Shown here: one piece after another, positions 7,752 to 54,785 of the stretch | How positions within the stretch are numbered: the stretch's first letter is position 1 | How the letters are laid out: each line of letters opens with the position of its first letter | NCBI RefSeq assembly: GCF_900046475.1 | Contig: NZ_FCOU01000001.1 | Location: forward strand, 62,001-126,000 | DNA: 64,000 nucleotides | Direction of reading: 5' to 3' | Source of the DNA: Collinsella ihumii | Lineage (GTDB): Bacteria; Actinomycetota; Coriobacteriia; Coriobacteriales; Coriobacteriaceae | Notes under the pieces: model-generated | What the model saw: only the letters and a program-made list of their open reading frames with translations | What the model was told of the DNA's origin: nothing | The model's database searches: none | Position numbers and translations under genes: made by a program

Positions 7752-7835
7752 TGCAAATCGGGGGACGTACCTTCTGCGTGCACTTTTGCAAATCGGGGGA
7801 CGTACCTTCTGCATGCACTTTTGCAAATATGGGGA
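7752..7835. repeat. Dispersed repeat family A, two and a half tandem units
   Basis: The unit GCAAATCGGGGGACGTACC-TTCTGC(G/A)TGCACTTTT occurs twice in a row (from 7753 and 7788), followed by a shortened third copy GCAAATATGGGGACACC. Other copies are at 7983-8037 with 9487-9535, at 13202-13265 and at 54729-54785. It lies in the 7640-8084 intergenic stretch, which otherwise holds only the glnA promoter. Confidence 0.8.
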
Positions 7836-7982
7836 CACCCCTTCGAGCAAAAAGACATACGTCGGGTTGTTTGGAGGACGCTTCAACCCATACTGCCGCA
7901 TCCTCCGGCTCGGCCCGGCTCGGCGCTTTTTCATGAGCCCCTCTCTCGGTCATCTGTATCCATGATGGTCTAGCAGGGATTT

Positions 7983-8037
7983 TGCAAAAGGACGCCCCTT
8001 CCGTGCGCACATTTGCATGCGGAAGGTACGTCCCCGA
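7983..8037. repeat. Left half of a family A repeat split by an IS element
   Basis: TTGCAAAAGGACGCCCC, then ATTTGCATGCGGAAGGTACG and TCCCCGA, ending at the IS border. The right half continues after the IS at 9487. The last three bases (CGA) are repeated on the other side as the target duplication. Confidence 0.7.
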
Positions 8038-9486
8038 GGGGGTGCGGCAGGAATCCTGGAGCGCCGGGGCGGGAAGGAACTGCGATGTTCACACCCGAGG
8101 AGAGGGAGGCGGCGCTCGGGCTCTACGACAGGCTCGGGAGCGTCCCCGCCGCGGTCGCCGAGCTCGGCTACCCCAGCGAGCGCTGCCTCTACGGCTGGAT
8201 CGCCCGCCGGGACGGCGCCTGCACCCGTCCGCGTGCGGTAAGATACCCCGCGCAGGAGAAGGCGGCGGCCGCCAGGCGCGTCCTGTCCGGGGAGAGCTGC
8301 GCCGCCGTCGCCGCCGACGTCGGGGCCTCCGCCTCGGCGGTCCTGCGCTGGCGGGACGCCTATGCAGAGGGAGGGATCGGGGCACTCATGGCCAAGGGGG
8401 ACGTGGTCGCGCCGGGGCCGCGCGCGGACGCGGGCGCGCTGCCCGACGACGCGGGGGAGCTCAAGCGGATGGTCCTCGAGCTCCAGCTCGAGAACGACCT
8501 CATGCGGCAGGTGGTCGAGCTCGTAAAAAAAGACCCCTGCGTCGACCCGACGCGCCTCTCGAACAGGGAGAAGGCCCAGGTGATCGACGCGATGAGGGGG
8601 ACGTATTCTCTGAGCTGTTTGGCCTCTAGGCTCGGCATCGCCGCGTCCAGCTACCACTACGCCCGGGCCGCGGCCGCCGCGCCCGACAAGTGGGCCGAGG
8701 CGCGCGCGGCGGTCGTCGAGGAGTTCGAGGGCGCCGGGCGCTCGCGCGGCTACCGCTACGTCCACCGGCGCCTCGCGGAGCGCGGGATAGCCTGCGGGGA
8801 GCGCAAGGTGCGCGAGCTCATGGCCGAGGAGGGCTGCGTCGTCGTGTACCTGAGGCGGCCGAAGAGGTGGAGCTCCTACGCGGGGGAGGTCTCCGAGGCC
8901 CCGCCCAACCTCGTGGAGAGGTCGTTCCGCGCCGAGGCCCCCAACAGGCTCTGGCTGACCGACATCACCGAGTTCGCGCTGCCGGACGCGGGCGAGCCGA
9001 AGGTGTACCTCTCGCCCGTCGTCGACTGCTTCGACGGGATGCTGGCGTCCTGGTCCATCGGCACCTCCCCGAACGCCGAGCTGGCGAACTCCAGCCTGGA
9101 GCGCGCGTGCGAGGGGCTCGCCGACGGCGAGGCGCCCGTGGTCCACAGCGACCGGGGCGGGCACTACCGGTGGCCCGGCTGGATCTCGATCTGCGAGGAG
9201 CGCGGGCTGACCAGGTCGATGTCGAGGAAGGGCTGCAGCCCGGACAACGCGGCCTGCGAGGGCTTCTTCGGCAGGCTCAAGAACGAGTTCTTCCACGGCC
9301 GTGACTGGCGGGGCGTGGGCGCGGAGGAGTTCATGCGGAGGCTGGACGCGTGGCTGAGGTACTATAACGAGGTCCGCATCAAGGAGTCCCTGGGCTGGAT
9401 GAGCCCGAAGCGGTACCGGGAGTCGCTGGGCCTCGCGGCCTAGCCCGATGTTTGCCCCGGCGCTCCAGGATTCCTGCCGCACCCCC
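8038..9486 (+). mobile_element. IS3-family insertion sequence, complete
   Basis: About 1.45 kb, bounded by 33-base perfect inverted repeats (8038-8070 and 9454-9486) that begin GGGGGTGCGGCAGGAATCC. A three-base direct repeat CGA flanks it (8035-8037 and 9487-9489), within the 3-5 bases usual for IS3 elements. Removing the element and one CGA restores GTCCCC-CGA-TTTGCA, identical to the centre of intact family A repeats, so the insertion target was a repeat. It carries one transposase gene that looks intact. Confidence 0.88.
8085..9443 (+). CDS. IS3-family transposase, OrfAB in a single reading frame
   Basis: A 452-residue transposase. The N-terminal part has two helix-turn-helix-like segments (about 1-110) and a leucine-rich coil (LELQLENDLMRQVVELV), as in OrfA. 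The rest is the OrfB integrase core, with DDE residues in WLTDITEF (about 292), HSDRGGHY (about 354) and EGFFGRLKNE (about 390). I chose the ATG at 8085, preceded by GGAAGGA. At 8525-8532 the run A7G resembles the IS3 slippery site. Here both parts are already in frame, and a -1 slip would instead end translation near 8629. Confidence 0.92.
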   Translation: MFTPEEREAALGLYDRLGSVPAAVAELGYPSERCLYGWIARRDGACTRPRAVRYPAQEKAAAARRVLSGESCAAVAADVGASASAVLRWRDAYAEGGIGALMAKGDVVAPGPRADAGALPDDAGELKRMVLELQLENDLMRQVVELVKKDPCVDPTRLSNREKAQVIDAMRGTYSLSCLASRLGIAASSYHYARAAAAAPDKWAEARAAVVEEFEGAGRSRGYRYVHRRLAERGIACGERKVRELMAEEGCVVVYLRRPKRWSSYAGEVSEAPPNLVERSFRAEAPNRLWLTDITEFALPDAGEPKVYLSPVVDCFDGMLASWSIGTSPNAELANSSLERACEGLADGEAPVVHSDRGGHYRWPGWISICEERGLTRSMSRKGCSPDNAACEGFFGRLKNEFFHGRDWRGVGAEEFMRRLDAWLRYYNEVRIKESLGWMSPKRYRESLGLAA

Positions 9487-9535
9487 CGATTTGCAAAAAT
9501 GCACGCAGAAGGTACGTCCCCACATTTGCACTGGC
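9487..9535. repeat. Right half of the family A repeat split by the IS element
   Basis: CGATTTGCAAAAATGCACGC followed by AGAAGGTACGTCCCCACATT. Together with 7983-8037 it forms one palindromic unit. Confidence 0.7.
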
Positions 9536-13201: not shown

Positions 13202-13265
13202 TGCATATCGGGGACGTACCTGCTCCATGCAATAATGCACGCGGAAGGTACGTCCCCGATATGCA
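13202..13265. repeat. Dispersed repeat family A, palindromic pair
   Basis: TGCATATCGGGGACGTACC and, in reverse, GGTACGTCCCCGATATGCA flank a centre of GC(T)CCATGCAATAATGCACGC. The two arms form a long imperfect hairpin, the arrangement seen in bacterial REP/BIME repeats. Confidence 0.75.
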
Positions 13266-54704: not shown

Positions 54705-54728
54705 TGCCTCCGGGCCGCTCCGGACCGA

Positions 54729-54785
54729 AGGGGTGTCCCCGATTTGCAAAAATGCACGCGCAAGGTACGTCCCCCGATTTGCACG
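54729..54785. repeat. Dispersed repeat family A
   Basis: GGGGTGTCCCCGATTTGCAA, then AAATGCACGCGCAAGGTACG and TCCCCCGATTTGCACG. It lies 25 bases after a family B copy. Confidence 0.75.

Follow-up and report, generated by a model that had tools for sequence, protein, structure and literature searches.

The window analysed here, a 64,000-nucleotide stretch of the genome of Collinsella ihumii (genome G000), contains a complete insertion sequence (IS) of the IS3 family, 1449 nucleotides (nt) in length and located at window 8038-9486, which interrupts a dispersed palindromic repeat designated family A. The explanation that we favour, and hold to be probable, is that a complete element of a single-frame subgroup of IS3 moved into an intergenic palindrome resembling a repetitive extragenic palindromic (REP) sequence, that the clade to which it belongs is biased to palindromes of unrelated sequence, and that target capture is linked to structure. 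Insertion in dispersed palindromic repeats is found for all three full copies of the element in this genome, and a strong palindrome spans the insertion in 24 of 72 copies from across the clade; such insertion is not confined to a single REP family, as families A and B are both occupied in the same genome.

Insertion sites across the clade

A protein search of 396 genomes of the class Coriobacteriia (E<=1e-75) found relatives of the element in 65, and another found them in Bifidobacterium, Fusobacterium and others. A tblastn search returned 172 loci with a match, which yielded 122 elements with both ends; removal of copies sharing the same 40-nt left flank or having short flanks left 78 unique elements. 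Six of these, whose ends were doubtful (L252, L063, L185, L202 and two in L188), were dropped to give the 72 copies considered here. Fragments lie outside this set, as do copies that lack the end motif, such as the four in G205. The bounded copies were located by their GGG-TGCGG end motif, and the resemblance of their ends to those of the window element is a consequence of this selection. A target duplication of at least 3 nt is present in 45 of the 72 copies, and a stricter duplication test is passed by 40 of the 72 versus 439 of 5112 mismatched pairs (8.6%).

The empty site of every copy was rebuilt by script, and the inverted repeat between its left and right flanks was scored. The 24 copies counted above have a spanning inverted repeat with a score of at least 14. 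Such scores occur at 1.7% of the 4320 positions taken from these loci and in 0.8% of the 1421 pairs of mismatched flanks, and at a threshold of 11 the corresponding values are 34 of 72 copies, 9.0% and 3.2%. A further control was provided by IS256 elements from the same class and partly from the same genomes, for which 36 loci were tried and the 26 with an exact 8-nt duplication were used. None of these reaches a score of 14 (Fisher p 1.7e-4 relative to the clade) and only one reaches 12, as against 29 of the 72 clade copies (p 2.2e-4). The difference is retained when one repeat family, which accounts for five insertions, is counted once (20/68 versus 0/26, p 6e-4), as well as when the window genome is also left out (19/65 versus 0/26, p 7e-4). 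The position within the palindrome is also restricted, with 18 of the 19 hairpins (score at least 11) that contain the insertion holding it in the loop or no more than 5 nt into an arm, where 8.8 would be expected.

These comparisons bear on an alternative that we consider improbable, namely that the elements land at random and survive mostly between genes, where terminators and repeats would supply palindromes by default. In fact, 58 of the 72 insertions are at least partly outside a rough mask of open reading frames (ORFs), hairpins scoring at least 12 are found at or within 15 nt of 5.5% of 750 intergenic-like positions compared with 0.2% of 576 positions of any kind, and 3 of the 26 IS256 insertions also have such a hairpin, all of which would be in keeping with random landing. 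However, such hairpins accompany 20 of the 72 clade copies (28%), well above the intergenic-like value, and both the excess of spanning palindromes scoring at least 14 over IS256 and the placement of the insertion in or beside the loop speak against this explanation.

The palindromes differ from genome to genome across the clade, and near-identical copies are found at unrelated palindromes, both in C. ihumii (families A and B) and in G096, where one copy (L244) lies in a ATGCATAG-type and another (L242) in a AAAGCACGG-type palindrome, with transposases that form identical rows in the tree. Taken together, the dissimilarity of the palindromes between genomes and the presence of identical copies at unrelated ones favour recognition of palindromes as such, and we infer from these sequence comparisons that the clade may recognize structure. 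A transposase tree of the 66 copies with an open stretch of at least 300 amino acids (66 rows, 29 labelled) shows palindrome use to be scattered, requiring 19 changes versus 21.5 in shuffles, and a single clade of palindrome users is therefore unsupported. The wider proposal, that a single-frame IS3-type clade extending across Coriobacteriia and Bifidobacterium has a DDE transposase that chooses palindrome structure over sequence, at the loops of host REP-like repeats, is more tentative, and we regard it as possible rather than probable. In the corresponding mechanism, the transposase, acting by copy-out/paste-in as in other IS3 elements, would capture target DNA at palindromes, owing either to the formation of a hairpin or cruciform or to a local property of palindromic sites, and the element would be joined at or beside the loop. 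As an outcome, genes would be spared and whichever palindromic repeat the host carries would be usable.

No better placed than random landing is the possibility that the transposase recognizes not the palindrome itself but some short primary sequence common in palindrome loops, such as an A-rich AAN or CAAA step. Some strings do recur among the 45 duplications (AAA six times; AAC, AACC and TTTG four times each), and all five insertions in G007-type palindromes are at AAA or AAC directly before the right arm. Yet the 45 duplications comprise 29 different strings, the copies in C. ihumii duplicated CGA and TCT, and A-rich triplets are frequent outside palindromes.

The window element and the repeat that it splits

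The element is bounded by 33-nt terminal inverted repeats (8038-8070, forward strand, and 9454-9486, reverse strand) that are 100% complementary to one another, and is flanked by a duplication of CGA on the forward strand (8035-8037 and 9487-9489), or of CCGA if the right end is set one base shorter. Both features had been recorded in an earlier note on this DNA, in which the element was assigned to 7983-9535, a span that contains it but includes the family A flanks. IS3-family elements have terminal inverted repeats of approximately 20-40 nt and target duplications of 3-5 nt, and the window element fits both ranges. Its transposase of 452 amino acids (8085-9443, forward strand, ATG at 8085) has helix-turn-helix (HTH) and integrase-core domains (HTH_28, HTH_23 and PF00665 rve) and matches the IS3-family model NF033516 with 325.5 bits (cut-off 160), as is appropriate for an IS3-type transposase with an integrase core. 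The family usually, although not universally, has two overlapping frames joined by a -1 frameshift, whereas a single open frame (8085-9443) is present here, and IS3 ends usually begin with TG, whereas those of the window element begin with GGGGGTGCGG. An A7 run is located inside the transposase frame (8525-8531, forward strand), at which a -1 slip would be followed by 32 further codons and a stop (8627-8629), with an OrfA-like product of approximately 181 amino acids as the result. Such slippage, predicted from the sequence, would generate the shorter product from a single frame, whereas IS3 elements usually show the opposite arrangement.

When one CGA is kept, the flanks of the element join to GTCCCCGATTTGCA, with four Cs, and not to GTCCCCCGATTTGCA, with five, as had been noted previously. 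Intact family A sites in the genome show both spellings, GGTACGTCCCCGATTTGCA and GGTACGTCCCCCGATTTGCA, and the conclusion that a family A repeat has been split therefore stands despite this correction to the C count; the rejoined site is the family A stretch GGTACGTCCCCGATTTGCA, a common form among intact copies. The left arm of the split palindrome, GGACGCCCCTTCCGTGCGCACATTTGCA (7990-8017, forward strand), is 20 nt from the junction and the right arm, TGCAAAAATGCACGCAGAAGGTACGTCC (9492-9519, forward strand), is 2 nt from it, and the rejoined site has a spanning inverted repeat score of 14, the value reached by 1.7% of the 4320 flank positions of the 72 elements. Family A is a genuine dispersed repeat, as had been supposed: 136 places (66 + 70) match the strict pattern in the 2.84-Mb genome, compared with none for a reversed-pattern control, and there are 40 inverted pairs of the form GGGGACGT-N10-40-ACGTCCCC, compared with one in the control. 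As family A makes up approximately 0.44% of the window, insertion there by chance is unlikely, although a single insertion is not decisive alone. Elsewhere in the window, family A is represented by adjoining intact units with a 35-nt period (7752-7845), an intact inverted pair (13202-13265) and an intact copy (54726-54783), and a diverged family B motif, TTTTTCATGAG (7927-7937, forward strand), is located approximately 100 nt to the left of the element.

Other copies in the C. ihumii genome

The genome holds three full copies of the exact IS together with four solo ends, and only the window copy sits in family A. Copy 2 (L002) is inserted in a family B element at a distance of 15 nt from a TTCATGAA and is flanked by a duplication of TCT, and copy 3 (C3:310727-312170; L003, L126) lies between two family B motifs, 14 nt from TTCATGAA on either side, such that all three full copies are in or between palindromic repeat motifs. 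Family B, as seen in 14 aligned copies, has a conserved centre between two TTCATGAA palindromes whose starts are 64-65 nt apart. A model of the family finds 39 places in the genome at E<=1.5e-7, which at approximately 84 nt each amount to approximately 0.12% of the genome. In 28 other genomes of the genus, the same model finds one place each in G036, G029 and, weakly, G024; the family is expanded in C. ihumii and nearly absent from the others. The genome has only 28 occurrences of TTTTTCATGAA, a marker of family B, of which seven adjoin copy 2, copy 3 or one of two solo ends. The solo ends, of 28-39 nt (C14:15769, C10:135832, C2:82184 and C2:137419; L006, L014, L015 and L019), follow a comparable pattern, with three of the four located 13-24 nt from a family B motif and the fourth (C10) approximately 300 nt from a B element.

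The earlier note had suggested that the element may prefer family A repeats, and proposed that the flanks of its other copies be examined for them. The location of copies 2 and 3 at family B shows that the IS is not specific for family A, both kinds of target being palindromic repeats, and the suggested preference survives only in a broader form, for palindromic repeats in general, as supported by the comparison of the clade with the controls and by two empty sites described below. Specificity for family A, in favour of which stand the window copy itself and a related IS in G239 (L240) located in a similar palindrome (GCAAATTGGGGACGT...ACGTCCCCAATTTGC), is thus ruled out for this genome by the two remaining full copies. 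It is very unlikely overall, given also that three of the four solo ends are by B motifs and that B was used in spite of the greater number of strict A sites (136, compared with 39 B places).

Several further features of these copies were observed. Copy 2 departs from the window copy within a patch of approximately 35 nt (window 8646-8677), where it carries clustered changes and 3 additional bases, and elsewhere at two bases only; the patch looks like the result of local conversion or exchange. The transposase of copy 3 is frameshifted and in two pieces. The solo ends are all of similar length, a uniformity not expected from random deletion. Within the genus, a DNA search of 42 other genomes for the exact IS gave only diverged, partial matches, and the IS end pattern was found, at up to 3 mismatches, in none of 41 other genomes. 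The exact IS had no match on plasmids (near mode), and of viral contigs, five stretches fit a search pattern, none of which is a relative.

Empty sites in related genomes

A 67-nt palindrome, AGTTGCGGTGRAATA...TATTYCACCGCAACT, is present in 11, 32, 29 and 20 strict copies in G002, G004, G007 and G010, respectively (control 0), and in none in the window genome. Two insertions in this repeat have a continuous empty counterpart in another genome: that of L176 (G002) corresponds to L317 in G001 (94.9% over 1000 nt), and that of L171 (G007) to L321 in G010 (92.2% over 1001 nt), which shows the palindrome to exist free of the IS in both cases. For the other three insertions in the repeat, no empty site was found among 16 intact loci compared. 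The notion that the IS itself makes the palindromes, through inverted duplication or adjacent rearrangement after insertion, of which the likely adjacent deletion at copy 3 could be an instance, is refuted by the empty sites in these two cases and, with many palindrome copies lacking any IS, has practically no standing. Across the genomes in which it was seen (G001, G002, G004, G007 and G010), the 67-nt repeat has conserved arms and a very variable loop, with 11-32 strict copies per genome.

Observations that weigh against structure-linked capture

Against the reading of a clade-wide, structure-linked preference must be set the 38 of 72 copies with a spanning score below 11, which have no clear palindrome, and the composition of the IS256 control, in which 20 of the 26 insertions come from three genomes (G007, G096 and G124). 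With the looser measure of a hairpin within 15 nt, the difference from IS256 is not significant at a score of at least 12 (20/72 versus 3/26, p 0.076), and has a p value of 0.045 at a score of at least 11 (22/72 versus 3/26). A fixed orientation relative to the palindrome, which had seemed likely by eye, failed a sign test, with 17 insertions nearer the right arm and 9 nearer the left (p 0.17), or 13 and 9 with one repeat family counted once. Copy 3 in C. ihumii is without a target duplication, the B centre is absent and the B model gives only a weak half (E 0.0096); its site is best read as an adjacent deletion. In G193, four copies are found in one repeated, non-palindromic site, and this lineage may use a sequence-specific site. 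These copies (L281-L284) are near-identical and have common flanks, AATTGTCAAACC / AACC..ATTTTGTGCC, without a clear palindrome. Finally, none of eight relatives on proteobacterial plasmids has a spanning repeat scoring above 8 outside its called ends, and in three of the eight the called inverted repeat continues into inverted flanks. Three of the proteobacterial ISBmu11-like loci (L298, L302 and L303) sit between inverted copies of TGACCC..., which we take to be IS21-type ends, and istB genes adjoin L298 and L302.

Relation to known elements

The behaviour appears to be of a known kind, with its breadth and its indifference to sequence appearing to be new. In its passages on the subject, the paper of Tobes and Pareja (2006; PMC1525189) describes REP insertion for several IS, including the IS3-family ISPsy8 of Pseudomonas syringae, which has a strong REP association, and cites experiments on IS1397 and ISKpn1 (palindromic units of E. 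coli and Klebsiella), likewise IS3-family elements in REP palindromes, for which the transposase is held responsible for the specificity. ISPsy8, set apart here by its description in the same passages, differs from the window element in its host phylum and in a shorter target consensus (PMC1525189). According to those passages, the IS110-family elements ISPa11, ISPpu9, ISPpu10 and IS621 also insert into REPs (PMC1525189), and these have an unrelated type of transposase and a target choice that is reportedly guided by RNA (PMC11208160, PMC11187229). A section heading of another study, which has Collinsella among its species, refers to a palindromic pattern at horizontal-transfer insertion sites (PMC7771070).

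In contrast to IS1397 and ISKpn1, a single clade is found here at many unrelated palindromes, a difference that refers to the targets described and not to sequences set side by side. IS1397 and ISKpn1 have a two-ORF layout. The contrast with IS1397 is tempered by a study entitled 'Palindromic unit-independent transposition of IS1397 in Yersinia pestis'. A DNA search of E. coli genomes gave matches in 50 of 5426, with the best 15 rows naming ISKpn38 or simply IS3 or transposase. Among the best 25 of at least 5000 plasmid records, the closest named relatives are proteobacterial transposases annotated as ISBmu11 (46.8% identical, 100% of the query) and ISKpn38 (48.1% over 94%, in two pieces). Of the eight loci of this type, four (L299, L300, L304 and L305) have GGGG(G/A)TGCGG ends; the group differs from the clade studied here in that five of the eight plasmid sites are without a clear palindrome and in three the inverted repeat exceeds the usual end. 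No published account of the target choice of the clade was found in literature on Collinsella IS and REP sequences, IS3 hairpins or stem-loops, ISBmu11 and ISKpn38, at the level of the best-ranked titles and abstract openings and with most subscription journals outside this coverage.

Landing of IS3-family elements in REP-type repeats has so far been a matter of a few proteobacterial elements, and the clade described here looks like a wider, actinobacterial version of the behaviour of IS1397, ISKpn1 and ISPsy8. Its preference for palindromes is real and wide, and points to hairpin-like DNA as a safe landing site chosen by an entire group of such elements. The identical copies in unrelated palindromes, together with the empty sites in related genomes, constitute natural test pairs for this proposal, which, if true, would set the role of structure apart from that of sequence when DDE transposases choose their targets, and would explain how such elements spread without disrupting genes.
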